Part shown: piece by piece, positions 13,538 through 63,209 of the stretch | Position numbering within the stretch: the first letter of the stretch is position 1 | Layout of the letters: each line of letters begins with the position of its first letter | DNA from: Athripsodes cinereus | Taxonomy: Eukaryota > Arthropoda > Insecta > Trichoptera > Leptoceridae | NCBI GenBank assembly: GCA_947579605.1 | Contig: OX388321.1 | Span: forward strand, 13,879,614-13,943,613 | Direction: 5' to 3' | DNA: 64,000 nucleotides | Notes under the pieces: model-generated | The model's database searches: none | The model's input: the letters and a program-made list of their open reading frames with translations, nothing else | Told to the model about the DNA's origin: nothing | Program-made: the position numbers and the translations under genes

Positions 13538-16126
13538 GGGTCATTATGGGATAGACGCCGCACTTTTTGAAATGTGCCTATAATATTTTTTTTTAAGGTT
13601 TTTTACAAAATTAAAAGCTGAATATGAGAATAGAATTATTTATTTACAAAACAGAATAAAAAAAGTTTTAAAATATTTAATATTTATAAAATAAAATAGA
13701 AAAATAAAAACCTCGAAATGTGGCGTCTCTCCCACACACTGTGGGAGAGTTGCCGCGGTGTGTAGGAGAGATGCCCTATTAACTTATTTAGCAATATTTG
13801 TATTCCTTATTCTAATTTTTTCGCGACCACACTCATTACACATAGTGGTGTACACCGTGCAGCTTTCATGTAGCCATTTGTGACACTCTTGGCATTGGAT
13901 CCAATCACACTTATTTGTTGTTAGAAAATAGTTTTCCCAACACTCCGAGCAACGGTTGCTTTCATCGGCAATTGGCCCGGAAGAAGTGGGTGTCTTTTTA
14001 TTTTTTTCTGCCTTTTTTGTTTTGGATGACTTAATTAATTCGGGCTTATTGGTTTTCTTGAACGCAATGTTTTCGTCCGAGGTTAGCACTTTGGCCACCT
14101 GTTTTCTTTTGACTTTTGAAATTGGTAGTTTTGGTATTGGACTTATTGCTTCCAGAACTTTGGTGGGTGTTTCTTTTTGGGATGTTGCAGAAGTTGTAGG
14201 CAAGTCAGATAACAATGGCTCTGATTGTGTTGGTGTTGACTGAGTGGACGGTGCTGGTGCTATTAATTGAGTGGACGGTGTTGATGCTATTGGCTCAATA
14301 TCTGTATTTTCCGATATTGTAAAAAAATGATCAGGAATGGCATTGGGGTTTAGTGGATAAATTCCACAGGCTGTAAAACCAGACAAAGCATTACCGTTTG
14401 TGGCAGCCTTTCCCCATGCTCGACCTATCAGATCACCAACTTGATATCTAGTTAATGTTCTGGACTTATTTTTTAACATCCAAGAATTGGCTTCTGCGTT
14501 GAAATATATTTTGAGGGACCTAAAAAAACTTCTATCTAATGGTTGTAGGGCCTGAGTTGTATGACTTGGTAAGCATATAATGATAACAGCATTATCACGA
14601 GCAAGGTCTAGGAGTTCTATAGAATTTGAATGTAAAGAGTGCCCGTCTAGAATTAATATAGATTTTCCAGTTGGTGCTTTACGAGGCAAGAAATGTTCCT
14701 TAAACCACTTTATAAAAAGTTCTGTGGTTATGTAGGCAGATTTTTTGTTCATATACACCTCTGATCCAGGTGGAAGTCCATCAGAAAATTCAGATTTCCT
14801 GTTGACCCCTTTCATTATTACAACAGGTGGTAAGAAGTATCCTGCAGCATTACAGCAGGCAATCAGGGAAACTGTCTCGCCTTTTTCTTTTGGTGTTAGG
14901 ACATGGACGTCCTTGGATCATTTTGCAGCCAGTACGCGGCCAGGTTTATTTATTAGTTGGATTCCAGTTTCATCCATATTAAATATATTTTCTCCTTTAT
15001 CAACCAAGTTATTTTCAATCATTTGTTTCTCCAAAATATTTAAAAAATCTTCTACCTCCTTTCTGTTCATTCCCTGTGCCCTCGCCACAGGAAGTCCCTC
15101 AGCTTGCCTGATGGAAATATCTTTATTACGTTCTAAAAACGAAGTCAACCAATGATAGCCAGCTTTTTTGTTTTCCATCGAAAACCGATGTGATATTCCC
15201 AGATTTTCTGCAAAATCATAGGCCAGTGATCGAACTGTTTCTCTATTTGGTGCAAATCCAGCAGCACCAAGTCGTTTAATGTATTGCGCAAGTCGTCTTT
15301 CATTTTCCACACCAAGAGATGCTGAAAAGCCAAAAATCTATTAGTAACAATTCTGTTAGACAATTTATCGAGCGTGTAATGAATATGTATGTATGCATTA
15401 TTTTTGTAACTGCTATATTGAAATTCAATAAATAAATAATGAAAATATTAATTAATTAATACACGAAATATATAATTGATAAAAAAAAACAGTGTAAATA
15501 CCTTGTGGTCCAAGACAAGGTTTCGTGATTTTTCCTGACAATATTCGCCTTGAAATGGTTCTAGCTGGGACTTTGTATAGACGTTCGGCCTGTCGTTTCG
15601 AAATTTTTCCCGAGGTCACTAGTTCTACCGCACATCTTAAGTTGTCTTCTGACCATTCCCCTCTGCCAGAATTTCCTTTTCTCACATACTTCCTAGGCAT
15701 TCTAAAAAAGGTTAATTAGTACAAATAGTAACCGCGGCATCTCTCCCCATATTGTGGGATAGACGCCGCACCCCACAATTAAATGAAAATAAAAATAATA
15801 ATTTAGAAATATTACATAAATCAGTGATAAAGAGAACAATTTTGATATTAAAACACTCACTTACCTTAAATAGTATTATTTTTATATAAATTATTCAAGA
15901 ATAGTAATATGCTGATGAAATTTTTTGAAGATTTTATTGCAAATGTTTTAGTTAAATCGCGATAAAAACTCTCTGCGTGACGCCAGCTACTCAATAACTG
16001 GTAAGAACTTGTCAAATATGATACACTCATCGAAACGAAGCATTCGTACGACAACATCGTTCGTAAAACCCGAACTAGAGCGAGTGCGGCATCTCTACTC
16101 ACGCGGCGCGTCACCCACAATGACCC
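13538..16126 (-). mobile_element. Pogo/Tigger-like element, 2589 bp
   Basis: Bounded by TA on both sides (13536-13537 and 16127-16128). The left end reads GGGTCATTATGGGATAGACG and the right end is its imperfect complement. The motif GCGGCATCTCTCCCACA and relatives recur near both ends (about 13556, 13722-13770, 15733-15770, 16088), as expected of transposase-binding sites. It carries one two-exon transposase gene and is inserted in the C-terminal coding region of an older pogo copy. Confidence 0.85.
13784..15700 (-). pseudogene. Pogo DDE_1 transposase with one nonsense codon
   Basis: Exon 1 (15700-15502) holds a psq-type helix-turn-helix (LRCAVELVTSGKISKRQAER) and ends at a GT donor. Exon 2 starts at 15321 after TTTTCAG and keeps the phase. 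It continues with a CENP-B-like second HTH, then first catalytic Asp in NMDETG, second in ILDGHSLHS, third in LQPLDRSF, and a PHD finger (CSECWENYF...CDWIQCQECHKWLHESC...CNEC). About 579 residues in all. The only visible break is TGA at 14918-14920, directly after the first Asp region. In other respects it looks complete. Confidence 0.85.
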
Positions 16127-16195
16127 TATTGGCTTGAATGGAATCTTCATTACTGGGTCCAGGTCTTATATCGGTTTCTCCTGTTAGTTGAAAAC

Positions 16196-16718
16196 ATGTC
16201 TGGGTAGGGAGGAGTTTGTCTATTTTGGACATTGCACATCTACTGCACCGTCTTCTACCTCCACTCTTTACTGGCATATGGTCTCCAATATTCAACATCT
16301 CTCTCGATCTTTTCGATCGTGGGCCCTTGGGATATATAGACTTTCTCCTTGTATTTGTCTCTTCTCGCCCCATCATGACAAGATCTTCAGCTAATTTGAC
16401 TAAATAAGGCATTAGTGGAGTTTTTTTGCCATTGATCGTTTGATGTAAAATATGTCCATTGACCACGCGGGACATAAGTAATTTGTAAAACACCTTTTTC
16501 CACCACTTGGTAGATTTGCTATTAAAATCATATACCTGGACCTTTTGGTCAGATATATCAACTCCTCCCATTATCTCATTGTAAAAAGCTATAGCTTTGG
16601 GGCAGTACACATCCATTTTTGCTCCGTTTTTTTGCTTTCTTTTTACAGTCACCGTTTCATCCTTGTGACAATTACTTAGAAGGATAACTTCTTTGGAGTC
16701 GATACTCGCATTCGCCAC
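16196..16718 (-). pseudogene. PiggyBac transposase C-terminal fragment
   Basis: Contains FYNEIMGGVDISDQ, the piggyBac motif with the last catalytic Asp, then KWWKKVFYKLLMSRVVNGHI and a Cys-rich tail (RRRCSRCAMSKIDKLLPTQT). The N-terminal two thirds are missing. It merges into pogo-type sequence near 16195, so it appears to sit inside the outer pogo copy. TTAA duplications were not found. Confidence 0.75.
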
Positions 16719-16905
16719 GCTTCAACGGTTTCGAAAATTTTGGTATATTTTTTCGATTTTTCATTACTGTTCCAAGTGCTGGTAAATGTAATGATGCTGT
16801 GAAATAGTTTTTCTACTCATAGGTACAGATAAATTACCCGATATATATTATGTGACCTTAACTTCGGGTTGTATCAGCGACTTGACCATCAAAAGTCTCT
16901 ATGTA

Positions 16906-17236: not shown

Positions 17237-17806
17237 CAGGAAAAACCTCTGGTTCATTTTCATTCTCAAGTGGATTGTCAGTTACTTGTGCTGGTGCAAA
17301 ATCTTCATCGTTAAATATTTTGTCATCATATGGATATTATTCCACATCGTCTAAATGCGCTTACGGCTTTATCTACATTAGCTGTTCTTTCAAATGCTTT
17401 TGCGAACAATCGGGCGACCTGAAACTGCGTAATAGCCTTCCCAGGATTTGTTACATGCCAGTTTACACACTCGTGGCCATATGCAGCTTTTAAAGTACCA
17501 AAGTATCTTACATCCAATGGTTGCAAACGATGGTTTGCATGTGGAGGGAGGGATAGTAGATGAATTCCATTGTCCTTACATTTGTATACTACGCAGAGGT
17601 ATGTGTGATGAGTGGTTGTCCAGAATTAACATAGAAGGAGCGTCCTTTGTCAATTTTTCCGATTTTATAAAATGGTCCATCCATTCAATAAAAAGTTCTG
17701 TGTTGATGAAGCCAGATTCTGAGACTATTAGAATGGAATTTGCTGGTGCCCTAGTAGCAATTCCTCTTTCAGACTTACTTTTGATGAGTCTATGAAAAGT
17801 CGCCAA
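17237..17806 (-). pseudogene. Outer pogo transposase, DDE half
   Basis: Reads SESGFINTELFIEWMDHFIK, MLILDNHSSHI (second Asp), MQPLDVRYFGTLKAAYGH (third Asp) and AFRRCGI. Frameshifts separate the pieces near 17550 and 17340. At its upstream edge it is joined to the Cys-rich ORF at 17750. The N-terminal HTH domains are missing. The PHD tail of the same gene is probably 13296-13537 plus 16129-16195. Confidence 0.75.
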
Positions 17807-18553
17807 TCTGCTGCGTTATGTTGAAAGTCAAGAACTGCGAACAGACCTTCAATGTCTTGACAGTAACATAAAGTGTCTTCCATGACATAATATGGAACCA
17901 AGAGACGATGCCGGTTTCTAAAGTGGGTGATTTTTGTACCTTTTTTGAGAAGATTCCACTGCTGCAAGCGCGAACCCAACATTTCTGATTGCAGTTTTGA
18001 TAAATTCAGGTTACGTACCAGATCATTTAGGTCATTTTGGTTCAACAAGTGAGGCTTCGCAGAAGTAGACACCTCCACAGAGAATTCAGAATCCGACTTT
18101 TCAGTATCCTCTTCTGATGGATTTGTTTCTAATTGAAAATTTTCTGGAGGTCTCGATATGGGCAATGATTCGTCGTGTGGAACAGGCCTTATAGCCGATT
18201 CGACGTTGTTTGGGTATGTGATGTGCTTCTTTTTTTTTCTTTGTACATCCTAAAATGTTTGTTATGCAGAAGTAGCAATCCGTTATGTGATTTTTTGGCT
18301 CTCTCCAAATCATCGGAATCGCAAACAACATAGCCTTACGTGAACCTTGTAGCCACCCCCTGAGAGTTCTTGTACATCGTACACAACTCACGTGTGGAGC
18401 CCATGGCTTGTCCTGGTCACCAACTTTGCACTTAATGTAGAGTTCATATGCTCGTTTCTCCAAAACGGTCATGGTTTTCCTTTGAGAAATTGGTGTAAAC
18501 TCACCGCACGTGTAACAGAAAATGTCCGCACTATTTTTGCACTTCCGAGGCAT
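17750..18553 (-). pseudogene. Cys-rich transposon-associated protein, copy 1
   Basis: From ATG at 18553 it reads MPRKCKNSADIFCYTCGEF, then YIKCKVGDQDKPWAPHVSC, MIWREPKNHITDCYFC, then after a frameshift near 18165 the region NDLVRNLNLSKLQSEMLGSR and DWRLFIDSSKVSLK. Paired cysteines (C-x2-C several times) suggest zinc binding. I recall the family only as numerous uncharacterised insect proteins and have no function for it. It runs straight into a pogo DDE fragment. A related ORF at 24377-24878 is also fused to pogo sequence. Confidence 0.7.
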
Positions 18554-18734
18554 TTTTAAATTGTTTTCTACCACAATTTACATAAACAAACAAGAAAACA
18601 TGTGCTCAGATAAAGACAGGTTAAGAAAGTGAGAGCAATAGCTGTCAAAATGACATTCGAGCCTAGTGTTGCCATATTATTAAAAAAATCAATGAAAACA
18701 CACGAAAAAATATGAATTTATACATACTTTAGTA

Positions 18735-19336: not shown

Positions 19337-21370
19337 TCACCGTTTGTTTCTCAATAAAATTTTGTATCTCGCCGTAATACTGTCAATCAAATCAACACCA
19401 CCCATATGGCGGCTGTATTCACCAATAATTTGGGGTCGTTTGATTGAACATATTTTCTTGTTGTATCGGCGAACTTCTGAATTTGGAAGTTCATCTACAA
19501 AACTAGAAGCTAATGTAACTATTTTTTTGTCCTTCCAAGCAACGTTTGTTAGATCTGTGCCTTCGAAATTGGTGACATACTCCACTGAGAATCCACGTTC
19601 TTGTTTTTTCAATTCCTTATCAAAAGGTATCTTAGTATCATAAATCGTGTTTCTGCGAATTGTCCCAAGACTTTGAATTCCGTTCTTTGCTAAATAGGTA
19701 TTCGAGAAGTGACAGATGTGAAATAATTGTCAAAGTAGAGTCTGTAGTTTTGGTTCCTGGGAATATTGCATAAAAGTCTCATAATAACGTTGAACGCAGC
19801 TCCTAATTCTGGTTCTCCCACATTCACAATATTTTCTGTCCCAGTCTCTACTTCGAAATTAAATGCGAACCCACTGACATCACTAAGGACGTACAATTTT
19901 ATAACCCCATTTTTGGGTTTATTGGGATTACCTTTATCTTTTTAAAATGTTTTTTGCCTTGGTGGAACACGTCTGCTCGTCTACACATGTATTTTTCCAA
20001 AGGTATGTAACTGCTTGCCTGCTTTAGTTTCGCCTCATAGCCTCATCAGGGATAAGTGAAGGATTCGTAAAAATCTTGGTAGGTATGTTTAACAAACACA
20101 CAACACCCATCAGCAATTCATATCACCTTGGCAGTGCATTATCAAATGTAGCATGGTTCGACAACCATTTGGTACGCAAAAACCAACCAGAGATCCTTAC
20201 ACAGTGGAGCAATTTGTGGCCTCGTAAAATCTGGATGTAGTCTCAGTTCGTGCCACTAATTAGACTTTGACTGTTTTATTATCGACCTTCTAACACGCTC
20301 GTGTTATCTGTTAAAAACATTTTTACAAAATTCTTTTTTTTTTGCCGTTTTCCACGCCTTGCATCAATAAAAGCTTTTTTAAACTATGGATGCTAACATT
20401 TACAGGATCATCACTATCAATAAAATAACTAGTTAGAACAGTATTGGCAACATTTTTGCTTCTTACAATTTTGACTGTTTTATTATCGATTTTCTAGTAC
20501 GCTCGTGTTATCTGTTAAAAATATTTTTACATAATTCCTTTTTTTTGCCGTTTTCCACGTCTTGCATTAATAAAAGCTTTTTTTTAATCTATGGATGCCA
20601 ACATTTACAGGGTCTTCACTATCAATAAAATAACTAGTTAGAACAGTATTGGCAATATTTTTGATTCTTACAATTTTGACTGTTATATTATCGGCCTTTT
20701 AACACGCTCGTGTTATCTGTTAAAGATATTTTTACAAAATTCTTTTTTTTTGTCGTTTTCCACGCCTTGAATTAATAAAAGCTTTTTTTTAATCTATGGA
20801 TGCCAACATTTACAGGGTCATCACTATCAATAAAATAACTAGTTAGAACAATATTGGCAATATTTTTGATTCTTACAATTTTGAGTGTTTTATTATCGGC
20901 CTTTTAACACGCTCGTGTTATCTGTAAAAAATATTTTTACAAAATTCTTTTTTTTTGCCGTTTTCCACGCCGTGCTTTAATAAAAGCTTTTTTTAATCTA
21001 TGGATGCCAACATTTACAGGGTCATCACTATCAATAAAATAACTAGTTAGAACAGTATTGGCAATATTTTTGATTCTTACAATTTTGACTGTTTTATTAT
21101 CGGCCTTTTAACACGCTCGTGTTATCTGTTAAAGATATTTTTACAAAATTCTTTTTTTTTGCCGTTTTCCACGCCTTGAATTAATAAAAGCTTTTTTTAA
21201 TCTATGAATGCCAACATTTACAGGGTTATCACTATCAGTAAAACCAGTTAGAACAGTATCGGCAAGATTTTTGCTTCTTACAAAGGCAACAAAATCTGCC
21301 AAGAAGTTTTTGTTGCAGTAATCATTTTTAACAGGTAATGGCTTTCCCAAATTTTCGCCTTTGATCAATT
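19337..21370 (-). pseudogene. PiggyBac transposase, decayed and internally amplified
   Basis: Minus-strand pieces in order: LPVKNDYCNKNFLADFVAF and LADTVLTGFTDSDNPVNVG (21368-21141), a tandem array, a region near 20030 with IPDEAM (first catalytic Asp context), YVLSDVSGFAFNFEVETG and LYFDNYF (19896-19690), then EYSRHMGGVDLIDSITARYK (19612-19337) with the last Asp. Many frameshifts and stops. It cannot encode an active enzyme. Without the array the length fits the family. Confidence 0.8.
20269..21275. repeat. Five tandem copies of a 204-205 bp transposase segment
   Basis: The phrase GACTGTTTTATTATCG starts units at 20269, 20473, 20678, 20883 and 21087, a spacing of 204, 205, 205 and 204. Each unit holds AACACGCTCGTGTTATCTGT and, on the minus strand, the piggyBac words DPVNVG and RGKRQKK. 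Units differ by only a few bases, so the amplification is recent relative to the decay of the rest. Confidence 0.9.
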
Positions 21371-22735: not shown

Positions 22736-24380
22736 AATTGCTGGATTGTTACCTCATACTCCGAAGAAGAAATCTGGGTAGTCACAGATGTTTGTATTGT
22801 CATTGGTATTTGCTCGAATGGACGATCAGTGACGGAAGAACAAAGAAAATCTGTTTCTGTAAAGATATTGCTATTAAATGGATAGATACCGGTTTTCTGA
22901 AATCCACTACAAATGTTTGTGATAGAAAAAGAGGATCCGTACGCTGATACGCTGAATTCACCAGTTCAGCTATCTTCATTATCGTTACTCGTTGGATTAG
23001 TTGTCAGGATTGGTTGTCATCCAGTTGTTCATAGCTTGGCGATATCTAGTTTTTAATGGCCCGTAAACTGATACTGTTTTTCCGTCCGCAGGGGTTCCGT
23101 CGGCCCGGGCGTCCCTCTTTCACAATACACCGTTCCTATGACAACGATATCAGAGCGCAAGGAATGTCGTGGAAAGAGGTGACGCAATTGGCACAGAGAC
23201 GCTCTGAATGGAGGAGGCTGGTTTCTGCCCTGTGCTCCCGAGAGGAGCGTTGAGGGCGATGATGATGATGATGATGAAACTGATACATCCAAAGGTTGCA
23301 TCTTGTAGCTGGAATGTGGTGGTAACGTTTATATAATGATGTGGTTTTCTCTAGTAAATTCTACAACCTTGATGTTGACGTGTGTTGAATGATTGTCCAT
23401 TATTATTATGGCTCTATTAGCCTTTGAAGGATTCACATGTTGCTTGAAGTGTTTCAGTGATTCCAGAAAGAAGTCCTCAGTCATCCACCCAGTTGAATAG
23501 GCAAGACCTTTACTGCCTATCGGCGCACCTTTGAGCATTCTGTCTTGAAAGTGTACTGTGGGAAATACAAAGACAGGTGGAACTGTGTTTCCCCGCAGCA
23601 TTGATAAAGAAAAGACCAGTTACTAATCTCCTCTTTCAGCAGATGTTACTTGCCCAACTTGCTTGGAACCTCGAGCAGCTATTACTTTTGGTGGCTTTGT
23701 AACAGTTTTGCAAGATGTTTCTTCTGAGTTCCAAATCATATTTGTACTTTTGCATGAGCTTCTCCAAGTTTTTAAAGAACATGTTAGTATTGGTTACAGT
23801 GGGGGCTCAAAAATTAGAGCCACCCAACATTTATAGACTTTTTTTGCAAAATTCTTCTATTTAACTTTTAGGACCATTCTAGATCAATTGTATTTTGGAA
23901 ATATGGGAATCTATAAATATAAAAAAAATAAATTGCTATATTAATTGAAAATAAATTGAAAAAATATAAAAAAATAAATTGCTAAATAAAAAATAAATTC
24001 AGCTTTACGGTTAGGCAAATTGTTTCTGTTCATAAAGCCCGTTAGCCAATCTTTTCCAGGCATGCAAAGATCTTCATTAAAGTTGTGCGTCAAATTATTT
24101 TTAACAGCATATTCGTAAGCCATCTTTTTGATTTGAATTGAAGTGCAGCTATAAAATATCTTACCAAGAAATTTTAATTGATCTGCAATTTCTGCTTCTT
24201 GTTTCTTGGTGAAGACTGGATTTCTTCCAAGAGACGATATGACAGAATTCTTTTTTTCAATCGTTCTTGGAGGGTTGAAAATGGGATACCAGTAGAACGC
24301 GCTGCTTGTCTTATAAGTGTCCCTTGATCGACAAGTTTGAATGCCTTGGTTATATCATCTTGGCTCCAATTCACCTTCAA
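22736..24380 (-). pseudogene. Pogo transposase relic interrupted twice
   Basis: The upstream end reads NWSQDDITKAFKLVDQGT (psq-type HTH), then a second HTH (CMPGKDWLTGFMNRNNLP). A roughly 200-bp insertion at about 23798-23995 starts with CAGTGGGGGCTC. The DDE core follows with GNTVPPVFVFP and AIIIMDNHSTH (second Asp), and KMQPLDVS (third Asp) is cut by a LINE insertion. After it the reading resumes (YGPLKTRYRQAMNNWMT) and continues to FQKTGIYPFNSNIF. The first Asp region is frameshifted. At its 5' side it joins the Cys-rich ORF 24377-24878. Confidence 0.75.
23075..23276 (+). mobile_element. 5'-truncated LINE 3' end with (GAT)n tail, copy 1
   Basis: Flanked by the 10-bp direct repeat AAACTGATAC (23065-23074 and 23277-23286). 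The body encodes FFRPQGFRRPGRPSFTIHRS then SWKEVTQLAQRRSEWRRLVS, a LINE C-terminus, and ends in (GAT)n. It interrupts the pogo codons just after the third Asp. A relative lies at 59970-60264. Confidence 0.85.
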
Positions 24381-24878
24381 TCCTTGGTTCCTGTTTCTGA
24401 AGTTTCCGAATGTAAGTCTTCATTGTCATTTAGTTCTGGAATTATCAAATCTTCCCAGTTCAAAGGTGGAGTTGGAACGGGTAGGCCTTCACCGTGAGGA
24501 ACAGGTTTAATGGCTGAAGGTACAGTCGGATAGTCAATGTTCTTCTTCTTTGAATAACCTTCAGTATTAGTAAGGCAAAAGTAGCAGTCATTAAAGTGGT
24601 TAGTTGGTTCACGCCAAACCATAGGTACAGCAAATGGCATATTGCTTCGGTTACCCTTCATCCACTGAATAAGTGTTACGTGACAGCTCACACAACTACT
24701 TTGATGTGGCGCCCATTGTTTATCTTGGTCTCCTATTTTGCATCCAAGATACAAAAAAATATGCTTTTTTTACATCTTCATTCATATGCCTACCTTGAGA
24801 TTTTAATACATAACGTCCACAAATATAACAAAACTTATCTGGTGAATTTATACAAAGTCTTCGCTGCTTTGATGCCAT
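24377..24878 (-). pseudogene. Cys-rich transposon-associated protein, copy 2
   Basis: From ATG at 24878 it reads MASKQRRLCINSPDKFCYIC, then after a frameshift near 24750 YLGCKIGDQDKQWAPHQSSC, PFAVPMVWREPTNHFNDCYF and KPVPHGEGLPVP. It matches copy 1 at 17750-18553 in the order of paired cysteines and the GDQDK.WAPH and WREP..H..DCYFC blocks. The C-terminal third is replaced by pogo sequence, which starts directly at 24380. Function unknown. Confidence 0.7.
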
Positions 24879-27123: not shown

Positions 27124-27778
27124 CTACTTAAAAGTAAGGCTGTCATAGAATGGGTGGTGATCTCTGTCTATGACAACCTTCAGTTCCTGAAGATGTCGGT
27201 ACTTTGTCTCGGACAAGGGTATACTTGTATCGTATAATCTCGGAGCCAGAGTACCAGTATTTCTCCTTCGGTGAGGAATCTCTTTCCACTCCTCATGGTC
27301 TATCTTGTACAAAATTTCTCCAGTTGGCAAGTATCTCAGAGCTCTTCAGTCGGTTACTGTGGGATCTCCTACTTTTTTACCCGGTCTCAGAGAAGGTAAA
27401 TTTGTTACACTCTCATTTTTTTTTAAAAAATCAAAGTGTATGTTGTGCACAATATAAGGCTGTTTTGGGCGGGCCATTTTTTCATTGCGATATAATCGCT
27501 TGGAGCGTAAATAGGCGCCTTAAAATAATGCTCCAAGACAGAGTGGACATTGTCCGCCTCCATCATTGTGTGTCCATTCTCCAAATATAGTTGCTCTATA
27601 GTGATCTTTTTGGATAAGCGTAGTCCCTCAGCGCACTTGCTAATGTCTTGTTTCTATTCTGGTAATTGCAACCATCTGAGACCAGTATAACTTTAAGATA
27701 TGTCGCAGGAAGATTTTCAATAAAATGCACTATGCATGAGGTAAACTCATTTGCAGTGACACCACCATCAGCCATGTG
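27124..27778 (-). pseudogene. DUF7869-like protein fragment
   Basis: The minus strand reads HMADGGVTANEF, VILVSDGCNYQNRNKTLA (second acidic motif), YLENGHTMMEADNVHSVLEH (third), KAPIYAPSDYIAMKKW, PSLRPGKKVGDP, LPTGEILYKIDHEEWKEIPH and finally VVIDRDHHPFYDSL. It is related to the intact protein at 55938-57725 in the order and spacing of SDGC..QNRN and GH....D. Several frameshifts. The 5' part is cut off where Tc1 and hAT sequences begin at 27779. Confidence 0.75.
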
Positions 27779-28640
27779 TATACAGTAGTGATGTAACGAA
27801 TGTCTGATTTTGGATATTCGCGAATGCGAATATTTCATGCCGACATTCGCGAATGCGAATGCGAATGCGAATATTGACTTGAAAATGGTATAGGAATTTG
27901 AAATATTCCAAAACTCCTCGGTTTTCTTAAAGAATATTTTCTTGCAGTACCTTTTTCCACAATGTACCGGGTAAGTATCCGGTACTTTCACCGAATTACT
28001 GATTTGTTTCTTCATTTACATGGTACACAACAGATGAAAGACATATAAATATAAACATGTTAGCGACAAAAACATTCCAATAGTCTTACATCGAAACAGT
28101 GCATACTTCAGCAATAACACACAAAACAATTATAGAAAATCTTACACATAATATAGGTATTAATTCACAATACATCCAATCACCCATTCCTATTACAAAT
28201 CGCTGCTCACCCAATTTCGCACACATACCGAATACATTCATTCGCACAAACACATTCACACTTCACTAATGTATGCAATAACAATACAAAAAAACTCTTA
28301 AAAAAGAAAAATCAAAAATTTAAAAATTTAAAAAACAGTCTAAAAATTAATACTATCCCAAGCACTTCACATTTTATCAAACATATACATTTTTTTTATA
28401 TTTATTTCATCTTATTCTACCCTCAACTTTCCTTTCTCACAAACCTGACGTAATTGGCACTTTAAAATTCTATAAACAGGGTTTCTTGAGTCTGCAATCG
28501 TTTTTGTTTTTTTTTAATGTAGAACGGAAAACAAGATCTTGTTAAAGGAAGCATTCAAAGTTAATCCTATCTAAAATATTAGGCACATCGTATTCGGACA
28601 AGCATATTTTTCTCAGGTTGCATGCATCCAGCAAAACTCT

Positions 28641-53043: not shown

Positions 53044-53368
53044 GAGGAAAGTCACCAAATATGGAATACCATTTTGTTTTTGGGATATAAAAAAAAAACT
53101 TCATATAAATTAAATCAGTTTAATGTTTTTACTAATCAGTCATACATTTATATGTAGTAATTAACAGCCTTTAATCAAATATATTAGTTATCAAATTAAA
53201 ATCTAACACAAAAAACAATCTCACAAATTAGTAACCAAATATGGAATAGGTACCCATATATAGAATACAAGCATAAATCAACATAACAATAACAAAAATG
53301 GACATTAATATCTTTGAGATCAATTAAATGAATATAACATATTGTGATCAATGAAATAAGTTACATAA

Positions 53369-55222
53369 TTACTTGCAAAAGTCACAGATCCAAGTATCAA
53401 ACTCTGGACCAGCACAATCATAATGTGCCCAGAGCCCACACATCAAGCATTTAATCCAGCTTTCTCCACTTTTATCCATGGAAAAAAGTCTTGAACAGAA
53501 CATACATTCTGCATCAGCAGAGTCAGGAGGTACTTGGTCCATCAACTCATCATGTTCACTACCTTCATCAAACTGGATAACGTCTAGTTCCTCAGAGTCT
53601 TCTTCTTCACTATCATCCTTATTTTTCTTCGTTTGTTTGTTTCTCTTCGCAGTTTTCTTCTTATTCTTTGTCTTGACTAGTTTACTTTCTTTTTCTTGTC
53701 TCTTCATATTTTTATTTTCTAAATCATTTTTGTAGGGAGAAGATGTTATGACTGCTGCTACAGCAGCTTTTCTTCCTCTGCTAGATACTTTTCTTCGTTT
53801 CTCTGGCACTGGACTTATGGCATGCGGAGACACCAGACCCAAACTGCTGCGATTAAGCCCAGAAGTCGAAGGTGCAGGTTCAGGTTGTAAATTAGCAGTT
53901 GTTTGTGGTGCACGTATTTCTACCAGAACTTGACCAGTTTCAGATCTTGATTCCAGCGGAGGGATATTGGTTGTACAACCATCTATTACAGCATTTTGTT
54001 GCGCAGCAATAAAGTCCACATCACTGAAGACATTTTTATTTAAAGGCCACAATCCAGTGACTTTGAACCCGTTGGCTGCAATTTCGCCTGTTTGTACTTT
54101 CAAATAGGATTTGCCAAACAGCTCCACAATATCATATGGACTTAGAGGTCTGTTGTTGTCTCTAATCCACATGCGTATTTCCTCACTATAGTATGTTTTT
54201 AAAGGCCCCATGAAAGTCTTATCTAACGGCTGCAATTTATGAGTCGTATGAGGAGGTAACGAAACTATGTCCACGTTATTTTCCCTAGCAATATCTATTA
54301 TATCGATATTGTGAGTATGACTATAGTGTCCATCTAGTATCAGTAAAACCCTCGATTCAGGAGTCGGGTTGGTGTGTTGAATAAAGTGCTTGAACCAGTC
54401 TGTAAAGATGTTCATTTGTATCCACCCTGATGGATGCGCAACTCCGACTGATCCTGGAGGACAGCCTCTCATTAGCTGAGCACTCATATTTTTTCTGGGA
54501 AAAATAATGAATGGTGGCACAAAATGACCAGTAGCATTCATGCAAACAACTATTGTCATCAGAGATCCTCTTTCTGCTGAAGTCAGTGCAGCTACCTGGC
54601 GTTTACCTTTGTGGCCGATTATTTGTGGTATCTTACTTTGTACTATTGTGAGGCCTGATTCATCCACGTTGTAAATACGATTTGGTGGATAGTTATTTTT
54701 AGTGTAAAGCTCTTCAAGGAGGTTGAAAAAGGCTTCCACTTTTTCTTTATCAAATCCAAATGCTCTGGCAAATGATGTACCAGTTGGTCTTCTTATCGAA
54801 AGTTTATCTTTATGACGATTTAAAAATAACTTCAACCACTTTTTTCCAGCCATACCAGATTCACCGAAGGGATTCTGCAAATTGTTTCGCTTTGCTAGCA
54901 TGAACGCCATACGGCGAAGATCAGTTCTTGTTAAACCGTGAAACTTGCTCTCCATTATTAGTATGTATTCTACAAGCTGACGTTCAAGTTCGGAGCCCAA
55001 GATAGTTTTTCGTCCTAATGTAGTAGCTGCTGCCACTTCTGGAGACTGTTCATCTTTTTGGCAGAGACGAAATAAAGTTGTCCTAGGCACTTGAAAATGC
55101 TGTGCCGCTTTCAAATACCCCATTTTCTTTGCCCGGACGATTTTTATAGCTTGTGCCATTTTTTCTTCATCCCAGGTTTTTCGTTTGGTTGATTGCGAAT
55201 CGGACATTCTAAAAACAAACAT
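53369..55222 (-). CDS. Intact pogo DDE_1 transposase with PHD finger
   Basis: 617 residues, or 612 from the second Met (MSDSQS), which I prefer. Domains: psq-type HTH about 15-60 ([20 protein letters not shown]), CENP-B-like HTH about 75-140, DDE core about 180-400 with D187 (NVDESG), D297 (LILDGHYSH) and D334 (LQPLDKTF), a Lys/Glu-rich linker about 500-565, and a C-terminal PHD finger (CMFCSRLF...[12 protein letters not shown]...CDFC). It should bind the element's ends, cut and reinsert at TA. No stop or frameshift, so activity is possible. It lies alone on the minus strand of its element. Confidence 0.95.
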
Positions 55223-55640
55223 TACATATATTTTTAAAGAAATAATAGCAAGTATCTATCATATGAAAAATTAAGACCTAATTATGGAATATTCCATAAT
55301 TAGATACCGACGACTGTCCATATTTGGATTTTTATACTAGTTCATACTCTTCTAAATATTTTTTCAAGTCACAATATTTTAATGACAAAAGATCACAAAA
55401 TGGTGAAATAAACATAATACCGATATACTAAATAGTATAAAACTTATGTATACAAACATAACAGCTGGTAATACTCATTTATTACTTACCTTTAAAATTT
55501 TCTACACGACAACAAAACAAAACACGCCTGCCACACATGAAGCGTTCGCGCAACTGACTCGATGGTGTGAGTGCGATAGTTAGTAGACCGAATGAAACAG
55601 AAGATGGTCGAGTGTTGCGTTTCATACTTGAATCGGTTAA

Positions 55641-57994
55641 TTACCAAAGGGAATAAGTCAGCATTTTTCCGATATGGCAATTTTGATGCAGGTTTAATAA
55701 TTTTGCATAGATCTATAATATTATTCAAGAAGAAGATTAAGTCAGTTCATTTACAGTGTAATACAGGCGATCATTTTTTTCGTTTGTTTACGAAGAGGAA
55801 TAAGTCACTGACTTATTTCTTTTCATAACTACACTGGCAACATTATATTTTTTGACATTCAGCTGTCAAACAGTTACTTAATTAGGACGCTATAGTTATT
55901 GTTGGTTTTTTAGTTTTCATTTTGATTTTGCTTTAAAATGTCTGATTCAGAGTCAGAAAACATTGTGCAACCCAACAAAAGAAGAAAAGGTGTTATAAAC
56001 GAAACAAAAAAACAGGAAATCAAACGATGTCGTTTGGGAGGAAAGGAATACACAAATACAAGAGGAAAGACAATTCCAAAAAAGAAACCTGGAGAGACTG
56101 TGTGTGAATGTAAGTTGAAATGTTTTAAAAAGATAAATGAACAGTCTAGATTGCAAGCTTTCAAAGAATTGTACAGTCTAGGCACAAAAAATGAACAAGA
56201 CATATTTCTACAGGGCCTTCTTCAAGCGAAGAATATTAAACAAAGACGACCACGGCTAGAAGTTCCTGTTAAATCAAGAAAATGCTCATTTAAGTATTTT
56301 ATTAAAGTACATGACAATAAACTACCTGTTTGTAAGAAGGCATTTTTGAGCATTTACTCTATTAAAAACAAGGCACTCTTTAGACTTCAACGGCTACTTC
56401 AAGAAGGAGAACTACCTCATGATAAAAGAGGCAAGCAGCAGAACCAAAAAACTATTCCTGCGAACATTAAACTGCAAATCGAAAATCATATTGCATCGTT
56501 TCCTGTTAAGCAGTCACATTATTCTTCACGAGAGTATAATTATTTATCAGCTGAATTGAATATAAAGAAGATGTATGTCATGTTTAAGAATTTATATCCA
56601 GATACTAAAGTGAAACAGTCATTTTATTACAAAATATTTAAAGAGCATTTCAATCTACACTTTGGTCGGCCTCAAGTTGACGCATGTTGTGAGTGTGAAC
56701 GTCTCACAATCAGAGTAAACTCAACTGACTTGGGGGAACGAGCAATTATGGCAGCAAAAGCTGAATTAACAGTTCATAAAAAACGAGCAGCAAAATTCTA
56801 CAGCAGCATTCGTGAAGTACAACAGCTTTGCAGGGATAGAGATGATGTCTTAGGCTTAACATTCGATTATATGCAAAATATATCATTACCCTGCATACCA
56901 GTTCAAGAAATGTTCTACTACCGTCAGTTGTCATTGTACCCATTTTGCATTAAGAATTTAAAAACTAATGAAAGCAGATTTTTTCTTTACCATGAAGGTG
57001 ATGCTATGAAAGGACCAAACGAAACATGCACATTTTTACTTAAGTACATTGAAGAACAAGTCTCAAGTAAAATTAAAGAGCTGTACATCTTCACAGATGG
57101 GTGCGGAGGCCAAAATCGTAATCATATCATGATTAGCTTATGTCAGGCGTTAGTAGATACAGAACGATTCTGTAAAATTGTCCACCGCTTTCCAGTCCGA
57201 GGACATTCTTTTCTTCCAAATGACCGCTCCTTTGGTACGGTGAAAAAAGTTTTGAAACGAAGAGATAGGTATTATTTGCCTATGGAGGTGTGTGAGGTGA
57301 TATGTAACGCACATAATAAATTTACAGTTTCTATGATAGAAACTGATGACATCATTGATTTCAAAAGTTGGTGGGGAAAATTTTACAAGCGCGATACAAT
57401 CTCTTTAGAGAGTCAATCGAAGAATATTCCACATTCGAATAAGCAACATTTTCTTATTTCCAAGTTTATGGAGTTTGAGTATTCCTCACTAATGAAAGGT
57501 TGTGTAATAACAAGGCCTTTCATTGGAAATACTATCGGAGTCAACACATTTGATATGAGAAAAAGGAAAGTACAAAATGTAGCACTTCCATCGGTGAAAG
57601 CTTATGATAGGTTTGTGGCCATTAAAAGGAATAAAATAGAAGACCTTAAGCGTACTTTGCAATACATTCCAGCTGAGAAAAAAGGCTACTATGAAAATAT
57701 AATTCAAAATTGGCCTAATTGTTAATAAAAACACAGTTTTATGACTGCCGTGTTTATTTTCTCCCACAAAAATCACAATTAGTAACCAAAGGGAATAAGT
57801 CAAGCAATTTCAAATGACCATATTTCATTAAAAAAAAAGAGAAATATGGTGAATTTTTGCATAAAATAGTGTATAATTAAACATATTGCTTATTTAAAAT
57901 GAAAATAATCATAGCTGTCAAAGAAAATTTTAGTGTACACAGTTTTTCATTCATTGTGAAAAGTTATGAAGTCTTGACTTATTCCCTTTGGTAA
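55641..57994 (+). mobile_element. TTAA-flanked element, 2354 bp, carrying a DUF7869-like gene
   Basis: TTAA occurs at 55637-55640 and 57995-57998. The ends are perfect 20-bp inverted repeats, TTACCAAAGGGAATAAGTCA. Extra copies of the internal part lie near the ends: GGAATAAGTCA and its complement at 55796-55822, and ACCAAAGGGAATAAGTCA at 57785-57802. One intact gene fills the centre. It sits in the pogo element between the transposase start and the right terminus, so it is the youngest insertion in this nest. TTAA targets are known for piggyBac, Kolobok and Sola3, but the protein resembles neither piggyBac nor a THAP-bearing Kolobok. Confidence 0.9.
55938..57725 (+). CDS. Intact DUF7869-like protein, candidate transposase
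   Basis: 595 residues, uninterrupted. A basic N-terminus (residues 13-50) is followed by a Cys motif (CECKLKC, 56-62) and a second cluster at 250-253 (CCEC). Then come three acidic residues in a line: D310 in LGLTFDYMQN, D387 in YIFTDGCGGQNRNH and D429 in GHSFLPNDRSFG. The order beta-strand-Asp, beta-strand-Asp-Gly, GH.....D looks like an RNase-H-type catalytic core. The same second and third motifs survive in the diverged copy at 27124-27778. The family is catalogued, as far as I recall, only as a domain of unknown function. A transposase role is inferred from its position as sole gene between inverted repeats. Start chosen as first ATG after the left end. Confidence 0.8.
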   Translation: MSDSESENIVQPNKRRKGVINETKKQEIKRCRLGGKEYTNTRGKTIPKKKPGETVCECKLKCFKKINEQSRLQAFKELYSLGTKNEQDIFLQGLLQAKNIKQRRPRLEVPVKSRKCSFKYFIKVHDNKLPVCKKAFLSIYSIKNKALFRLQRLLQEGELPHDKRGKQQNQKTIPANIKLQIENHIASFPVKQSHYSSREYNYLSAELNIKKMYVMFKNLYPDTKVKQSFYYKIFKEHFNLHFGRPQVDACCECERLTIRVNSTDLGERAIMAAKAELTVHKKRAAKFYSSIREVQQLCRDRDDVLGLTFDYMQNISLPCIPVQEMFYYRQLSLYPFCIKNLKTNESRFFLYHEGDAMKGPNETCTFLLKYIEEQVSSKIKELYIFTDGCGGQNRNHIMISLCQALVDTERFCKIVHRFPVRGHSFLPNDRSFGTVKKVLKRRDRYYLPMEVCEVICNAHNKFTVSMIETDDIIDFKSWWGKFYKRDTISLESQSKNIPHSNKQHFLISKFMEFEYSSLMKGCVITRPFIGNTIGVNTFDMRKRKVQNVALPSVKAYDRFVAIKRNKIEDLKRTLQYIPAEKKGYYENIIQNWPNC

Positions 57995-58075
57995 TTAACT
58001 GATTCACTTATAGTCTTAGAGAAATGAAGGTATTCCATATTAGGATACTATTTCATATTTGGTGACTTTCCTCTA

Positions 58076-61212: not shown

Positions 61213-61405
61213 TTACATGTATGAAATAATTACGTCAGTTATAAGTGTGGACCTAGGTACAAAATATTTTATTCTATACAACATACCACCTATACATCGT
61301 AATCTTTTACAAATACTATTTACATGTAGGTCCCACTTAAATCTATTATCTATAGTTAAACCTAAATATACAAATTTATTTACAATACTTATGACCGGAC
61401 AATCG
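61213..61405 (-). pseudogene. LINE RT C-terminal fragment
   Basis: Reads VISIVNKFVYLGLTIDNRFK, WDLHVNSICKRLRCIGGMLY, the region after the LINE palm domain (YLGL.ID..L.W..HV). It separates the gypsy and Helitron fragments. Confidence 0.75.
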
Positions 61406-63209
61406 GACCTGTGCACTCTGTTCGCTTAATAAAGCTTCTGTTATTTCCTTCCACTTTGGGTTAGTTGTAAATGTTATAAATAAATCAGGTCTTCCAAAGT
61501 TTCGAACGTAGGTCATGGCATCTTGCGTTTTCTCATACATATAACGTGGTCCTCCAGTGAAACTGGATGGCAAAATCACCATTTGCCCAACATTATTTGC
61601 GTGCCCATCATTCCGAATAGCATCTTGCAAATGAACATAGTTTTCACTTCGTAGTTTTGACTGATTCATTTTAATGAATATGAGTCGTTCAGTTTCAACT
61701 TTGACGTACATGTCCACTAAATACTGTTGGAACAGTTGGCGACAATAATGTAAATGGTTTTTGGCAGTATTTCTTATCTGTAAATGATAAGCATAATACT
61801 GCATGCAGCTTACTTTCTTGTTTGTTGCTTCACCATTTACAGGATTTACTTGATACATTATAAAATGGTAACCGTCTTCACCTCGACAAAATATCAATGG
61901 ATACTGTAAACAATCATAAGCTCTGTGTGATTCATATATTCGCTGCAATGTATCATTACGGTGTCTCAAGACAATGTCTCGTTTCTCGCATGATTCCCCT
62001 ACAACTATCACTGCAACTTCGCTTGTGGAAGGCGCATTGTACCTTCCACGATGTTCACCCGCTGGTCTTCTGTCTGCTTCTATTACAATTTTATAATCAT
62101 CATTGTTGGACAGATTATTTTCAAGTGATGTTTTTAAATCTTTTATATATGTATTGTATTGGTGGAGTGTTTGCTGAATAACTTGTAATGTCTCTCTATC
62201 TAAATTGGGGAAATTATTACACCTTACATCTAATTCGTTATCACCTACAAAGTAGATTTGTAAAAATTTGTGTGTATCTCCTTCAACAGGAAGCAGAGAT
62301 CCAATCCTGTGATATATCTGACCTTGAATTTTGAATGTTGGCATATATCTTTCGTCACTAACCTGGTTTGTTCCAAATGATGTCATTTGGAACGCACAAT
62401 TGTAGGCGCGAATATTTTTTAAAAAACTTTTACTTCTACTGTCGTTTAAAAAAAACAATGAATTTAATGGTTCTGGAGGCATTTGTAGTAATGGTAACTT
62501 TATTTTGCCAGATAAACAACACATACCTGGAGTTTCTCCCTCCCATTTCAGAGCATCACAGTATCTGCATACAACTGACATAGATTTTATGTCATTTGCA
62601 TAGTCTAAATTCTTATTATAGGAGAACGCTGACAACTTCAAATTCTTCCATTCACGCATTCTTACTTGACTCGTTCTTTCGCGGGTTTCATTCAATCTTG
62701 TCTGATATTCTTCATTGCTTTCTAAATCTCTAGAAGTACTGGCATGTACACGTAGTTCATTCAATCTCCTTTCACGTTATTCCATACTTTCTGTATTTCT
62801 AGAGGTACTGGTATATACTCGGGAGTTCATTCAATCTTCTTTCATGTTCTTCCATATTCTCTGTATCTCTAGACGAACTGGCATATACTCGGAGTTCATT
62901 CAATCTTCTTTCACGTTCTTCCATATTTTCTGTATCTCTAGACGTACTGGCATATACTTGTAGTTCATTCAATCTCTTCTCTCGTGCAGCTACACTTTCA
63001 TTCGATCTCAAATCAGACATTCTTTCACGTGCATTTTCCAGTCTCCACTCTCGTTCCTCATCAGTCTCATCACATCTTGAAGCTGCCGCATATTCTCTCA
63101 AAGAATTTAGTCTAGCTTCCCTCTGTTCTTGGTCTTCATTCTCCCTATCACTCGTTTTCCTCTTGGCACCAGGAGTCCGTCTTCCAAGAGAAGATTTTTT
63201 TGGTGGCAT
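61405..63209 (-). pseudogene. Helitron Rep/helicase protein, N-terminal part
   Basis: From ATG at 63209: a charged head (MPPKKSSLGRRTPGAKRKTS), then a 23-residue repeat built on RRLNELRVYASTSRDTEN present about four times (DNA unit 69 bp), then the Helitron_like_N region (CRYCDALKWEGETPGMCC, YNCAFQMTSFGTNQV, GQIYHRIGSLLPVEG, ESCEKRDIVL, YPLIFCRGEDGYHF) and the beginning of Rep (GQMVILPSSFTGGPRYM, LFITFTTNPKWKEITEALL). One extra base at about 62820, inside a repeat unit, shifts the frame. It is cut before the HxH and Tyr motifs, so it is not functional. Confidence 0.9.
62730..63010. repeat. 69-bp tandem repeats coding 23-residue units
   Basis: CTAGA(C/A/G)GTACTGGCATATAC-type anchors occur at 62730, 62799, 62869 and 62938, giving spacings of 69, 70 and 69. 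The 70-bp spacing contains the frame-shifting extra G. Such repeats at the Helitron N-terminus probably change copy number easily. Confidence 0.85.

Follow-up and report, generated by a model that had tools for sequence, protein, structure and literature searches.

In the window (the whole stretch of 64,000 nucleotides analysed here), a reading frame for a protein with the Pfam domain DUF7869 lies between inverted ends, and the locus raises three connected questions: where the element that carries this frame begins and ends, which target it inserts into, and whether the DUF7869 protein is the enzyme that moves it. Comparison with other places in the genome shows precise insertion with a 4-bp ANNT target-site duplication (TSD), and we consider the element to be, very probably, a 2376-bp autonomous DNA transposon whose sole gene would encode a DDD transposase with DUF7869 as its catalytic domain.

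Ends of the element and its insertion site

The earlier note, made from this copy, described a TTAA-target transposon at 55641-57994. Much of what it saw at the ends is there: the 20-bp ends (TTACCAAAGGGAATAAGTCA; 55641-55660 and 57975-57994) form a perfect inverted pair with TTAA outside each; no other pair of TTAA-flanked inverted ends of at least 12 bp, 0.5-6 kb apart, occurs in the window, and 20 first-order Markov sequences gave 0 such pairs at 10, 12 or 20 bp; and TTACCAAAGGGAATAAGTCA with up to 3 mismatches has 4 matches in the window vs. 0.01 expected from shuffles. The extra subterminal copies of the motif are likewise present, in weaker form. Alignment with copies from the same genome nevertheless places the true ends 11 bp beyond each previously read end, so that neither the TTAA as target site nor the 20-bp repeats as exact ends can be kept. 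The features are as follows.

55630-58005, plus strand: whole element, 2376 bp (copy alignment within the same genome)
55626-55629: left TSD, ACTT (copy flanks and insertion-free site)
58006-58009: right TSD, ACTT (copy flanks and insertion-free site)
55630-55660, plus strand: left terminal inverted repeat (TIR), 31 bp, GAATCGGTTAATTACCAAAGGGAATAAGTCA (copy alignment)
57975-58005, minus strand: right TIR, 31 bp, starting GAATCAG, 1 mismatch vs. the left TIR (copy alignment)
55637-55640: TTAA inside the left TIR, earlier taken as the left target site
57995-57998: TTAA inside the right TIR, earlier taken as the right target site
55788-55807, plus strand: subterminal TIR-like motif, 3 mismatches (motif search of the window)
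55809-55828, minus strand: subterminal TIR-like motif, inverted, 4 mismatches (also present in the locus copy)
57783-57802, plus strand: subterminal TIR-like motif, 1 mismatch (motif search of the window)

The two TIRs agree at 30/31 bases. Boundaries read from a single copy, which the earlier note held to be unambiguous, are in fact ambiguous here because TTAA reads the same on both strands and belongs to the inverted repeat: TTAA, AATT and TAATTA are each possible as TSD from one copy, and an insertion into a palindrome had to be weighed against a longer TIR. The comparison of copies decided for the longer TIR.

A transposon with 20-bp TIRs and a TTAA target would account for the TTAA at both ends in 9/10 family-A copies. 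However, the count stays at 9.0 after shuffling of the right flanks; as TTAA is invariant and matches equally well after shuffling, its match is uninformative as a TSD. Moreover, GAATCGG or GAATCAG is conserved outside the TTAA, being exact in 19/24 family-A ends (the other 5 are the left ends of L029, L031, L032, L034 and L036), and variation starts past that heptamer. The 4 bp beyond GAATC, in contrast, are the same on the left and right in 6/10 family-A copies vs. 2.07 after shuffling, and they vary between copies (AAAT, AAGT, ACTT, ATTT). Because these 4-bp flanks match while differing from copy to copy, we place the element at 55630-58005 with ACTT on either side. The GAATCAG variant is found at the right end of 3/3 full-length copies and at none of their left ends; the variant base, common to all three, thus belongs to the element and travels with it.

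The insertion-free site settles the matter. We joined window positions 55431-55629 to 58010-58073, keeping one ACTT, and searched the genome with this query: 60 first-look candidates were obtained, and all 40 places that were scored are identical to it (100%) across bases 1-263, with a single ACTT. As the query is pogo-like throughout, these places are other copies of the same pogo-like part without the insertion. Neither TTAA nor GAATCGG stands at the insertion point in the 40 scored places, whereas the TTAA model would demand 22 extra bases there, made up of another ACTT and 18 more. The empty site refutes that model, to which we now give practically no credence. The locus also carries a practical lesson: a palindromic TTAA within a TIR can mimic a target site if one copy alone is seen.

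The position inside another transposon, as the earlier note had it, was confirmed. The host is a pogo-like element with a TA target duplication, itself inserted in the open reading frame (ORF) of a LINE (frame restoration, Pfam and empty site):

53044-58073, minus strand: pogo-like host element
53369-55222, minus strand: ORF of its transposase

Once the pogo-like element is taken out, the LINE reverse-transcriptase frame runs uninterrupted; of the three layers nested here, the DUF7869 element is thus the youngest. The pogo-like host itself looks extremely young, given the 40/40 scored places that are 100% identical over the 263-bp stretch, and the C-terminus of its transposase has a PHD-like stretch that scores below the Pfam cut-off.

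Copies, relatives and the ANNT rule

The genome searched was the window's own assembly (716 Mb, 160 contigs). Other copies with the same ends, whose existence the earlier note had left to a search, do occur, and the ORF is not a single-copy host gene. Three copies are full-length: the window copy, one (C1) identical to it over 2376 bp, and one (C7) with 4 differing bases; the element is recently active. Shorter copies comprise two longer derivatives (C3:1785354-1785694 and C2:8895386-8895806), which keep ~110 bp of the left end and 180-226 bp of the right end, and five MITE-like copies of 228-256 bp, which have both ends in common with the window element. The middles of the MITE-like copies would be of other origin or have diverged, because these copies match the window element only over the terminal 34 bases. 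Allowing up to 3 mismatches, we counted 20 occurrences of the 31-base end genome-wide vs. 0 for a control pattern. At one further place (G000, C23:4594612-4594762), two family-A ends point the same way with 106 bp between them, perhaps what is left of a tandem or a solo end.

Searching the genome with the protein returned at least 77 matches, for which 74 of 1422 candidates were scored; identities range from 100% down to 26%, and many matches fall into groups of near-identical copies. We sampled 43 copies from seven families for their TSDs: the window's family, two close relatives, and families with ~49, 43, 31 and 30% protein identity. Outside this count stand L029, L032 and L040 (partial or one-ended), further loci that duplicate counted or partial places, and L076-L081. 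Of the 43 copies, 37 showed both ends (the remaining six are L031, L067, L055, L058, L062 and L066). Where the earlier note proposed a test for TTAA duplications at other copies, 32 of these 37 have identical 4-bp flanks, and 32/32 of the duplications are ANNT; shuffling of the right flanks (2000 trials) gave a mean of 6.8 matches and a maximum of 15. None of the 32 copies extends the match to 5 or 6 bp, and five two-ended copies (L034, L036, L039, L020 and L056) are without duplication.

Across the families, the termini begin with GAATC, GAATT, GAGGC or GAAGG. At the place of the TTAA, relatives carry GGTTAG or GGTTAT or no TTAA at all, yet they have ANNT duplications, a further point against a TTAA target. 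A second box, AAGTCA, occupies bases 26-31 counted from either end in the representatives of the window family, the 43% family and the relative at 62%; in the representative of the 49% family it is confined to the left end, at bases 27-32. It was not found at the corresponding place in representative copies of the two most distant resolved families. In L076-L081 (three DUF7869 groups, 25-28% identical), element ends and a target rule were sought and not found; these loci have repeated stretches toward their ends, with termini that look different, e.g. ATCTGTACCTGAG. The intact, essentially identical copies and the defined target rule provide material for a transposition assay.

The DUF7869 protein as the probable transposase

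The intact 595-aa ORF of the earlier note was confirmed, as were the three aspartates that it proposed. Features of the coding part are as follows.

55938-57725, plus strand: ORF of 595 aa, proposed transposase (ORF list, Pfam, genome protein search)
57003-57386, plus strand: Pfam PF25273 DUF7869, residues 356-483, E 1.8e-12, 47.7 bits (cut-off 26)
56865-56867, plus strand: D310, first proposed catalytic aspartate (invariant in 9/9 proteins)
57096-57098, plus strand: D387, second proposed catalytic aspartate, in TDGCGGQNRN (invariant in 9/9 proteins)
57222-57224, plus strand: D429, third proposed catalytic aspartate, in GHSFLPND (invariant in 9/9 proteins)
57724-57729, plus strand: AATAAA, overlapping the stop codon, a likely polyadenylation signal (sequence)

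DUF7869 is the sole Pfam match of the ORF at E up to 1. When the window protein was aligned with one protein from each of eight other groups (25-62% identical to it), the nine aligned across most of their length, and all nine match DUF7869 (E up to 0.01). D310, D387 and D429, spaced D-76-D-41-D, are invariant, together with C250, C253, H280, G391, Q392, N393, N395, G422, H423 and others.

Everything expected of a DNA transposon was found at this locus (TIRs, a TSD, several copies and an empty site), and with the Pfam match these bear out the earlier description of a complete transposon with a single gene, that of the DUF7869 protein. Whether the DUF7869 protein moves the element is a separate matter, as co-residence alone is no proof of enzyme activity; the ORF could be a passenger in an element moved in trans by another transposase, and the window does hold others (pogo-like and piggyBac-like). 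We judge this quite improbable: among six intact elements examined, one from each of six families, five have no ORF of at least 100 aa besides the DUF7869 ORF, and in the other one this ORF is much the longest, although their TIRs differ and the target rule is the same; the acidic triad is invariant; and the pogo-like element makes TA duplications, which do not fit ANNT. The main argument for the DUF7869 ORF as the transposase is thus its linkage to different TIR sequences under one target rule.

We propose that the transposase would bind the TIR through the terminal GAATCGG and the AAGTCA box at bases 26-31, which is repeated subterminally, and would cut at the GAATC ends by means of D310, D387 and D429; the cut ends would then be joined to a target ANNT whose strands are cut 4 bases apart, and fill-in of this stagger by the host would yield the target duplication. 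The overall mode would be cut-and-paste, with presumed excision of the element.

Structure prediction added little. Single-sequence AlphaFold models have low confidence (mean pLDDT 36 for the whole protein and 42 for the core, residues 296-485), and in these low-confidence models the order of strands and helices is compatible with RNase H past the first strand, which is absent in both. The Foldseek matches are uninterpretable and none is counted as evidence: the whole-protein model returned acetyl-CoA carboxylase first, RuvC third (E 0.12) and SIV integrase eighth (E 0.21), and the core model an African swine fever virus RNA polymerase subunit (E 8e-4, rmsd 13.9). A sequence search of the PDB gave one insignificant match to an unrelated protein (E 0.14), the DUF7869 profile gave none there, and NCBIfam held no significant relative.

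DUF7869 scores above the Pfam cut-off at 150 or more places in the genome, many of them forming groups with equal score and frame length; because 150 is the number of all those scored among 404 candidates, the genome probably has more of them. A Pfam domain of unknown function, present at 150 places or more above cut-off in one 716-Mb genome, would thereby acquire a probable role, and genes bearing DUF7869 should be suspected as transposases first rather than as host genes. The domain was found in 0/14 control genomes (of unspecified kind). The outside collections searched were viral, prokaryotic, plasmid and phage, which have no bearing on animals, and they held no relatives: viral contigs gave only 2 pattern matches and two chance matches, prokaryotic genome contigs gave 12 pattern matches and three chance matches read as broken frames, and plasmids and phages gave none.

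Comparison with known transposon groups and other features of the window

Sola transposons are reportedly of the DDD type with 4-bp target duplications, and Sola3 is TTAA-specific. Since a proposed DDD triad and 4-bp TSDs fit Sola as it is said to be, the element is most likely Sola-like in the broad sense, a likeness drawn by description only. The 4-bp duplication ascribed to Sola1 and Sola2 is also seen here (32/37 copies, all exactly 4 bp), and the three aspartates, a proposed triad known from sequence alone, are invariant in 9/9 proteins, as would suit the DDD class attributed to Sola. The Sola3-like branch that the earlier note named as one option falls with the TTAA target: Sola3 is held to target TTAA, whereas the present element targets ANNT and has TTAA within its TIR. 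Sola-labelled elements appear among moth transposons inserted in a baculovirus genome (PMC4735498, PMC8634313), and the literature searched, available in part, gave no Sola termini or target motifs.

The other TTAA groups do not fit either. Kolobok has 5'-RR termini, TTAA duplications and a C/DxxH motif between the second and third catalytic residues (PMC9587614); the GA terminus of our element agrees with the first of these, but its duplication is ANNT, and no C/DxxH as given there was read by eye between D387 and D429. piggyBac is, like our element, a DNA transposon with TIRs, and TTAA meets the eye at the element's ends; however, piggyBac duplicates TTAA rather than ANNT, and its DDE_Tnp_1_7 domain has no match in the 595-aa protein (Pfam, E up to 1). 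The ORF is a member of Pfam PF25273 above the curated cut-off, and Pfam assigns DUF7869 no function.

A minority chance remains with a separate superfamily outside Sola and all Repbase superfamilies, characterised by DUF7869, 5'-GA termini and ANNT, and set apart, again, by description only. The literature searched held no mention of DUF7869 by name, the protein has no significant PDB or NCBIfam relative, and the target rule is unlike that of the TTAA groups; on the other hand, the DDD class and 4-bp duplications ascribed to Sola would fit the element, and we regard a superfamily of its own as rather unlikely. Were it real, it would be a very successful superfamily with a strict ANNT rule, undescribed as such, and the DUF7869 genes annotated elsewhere would be its transposases. 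The window also holds what is left of a second DUF7869 protein, decayed and frame-shifted (27127-27814, minus strand; SDGCNYQNRN, GHTMMEADNVHS), whose best match is the L078 protein (E 1.7e-9) and whose pieces have no match to Pfam DUF7869.

Further features of the window are as follows.

17728-18577 and 24377-24769, minus strand: two similar pieces of a protein in which Cys motifs recur (GDQDKxWAPH, DCYFC); Pfam matches neither of the two frames within 17728-18577
16095-16721 and 19337-19729, minus strand: two piggyBac-like fragments (DDE_Tnp_1_7)
13784-15337, minus strand: second pogo-like DDE_1 transposase, divided between two open frames; its weakly PHD-like C-terminus scores under the Pfam cut-off
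61376-62776, minus strand: Helitron-like N-terminal domain, E 1.2e-39
20266-21283: five units of 205 bp in tandem, 92% matched
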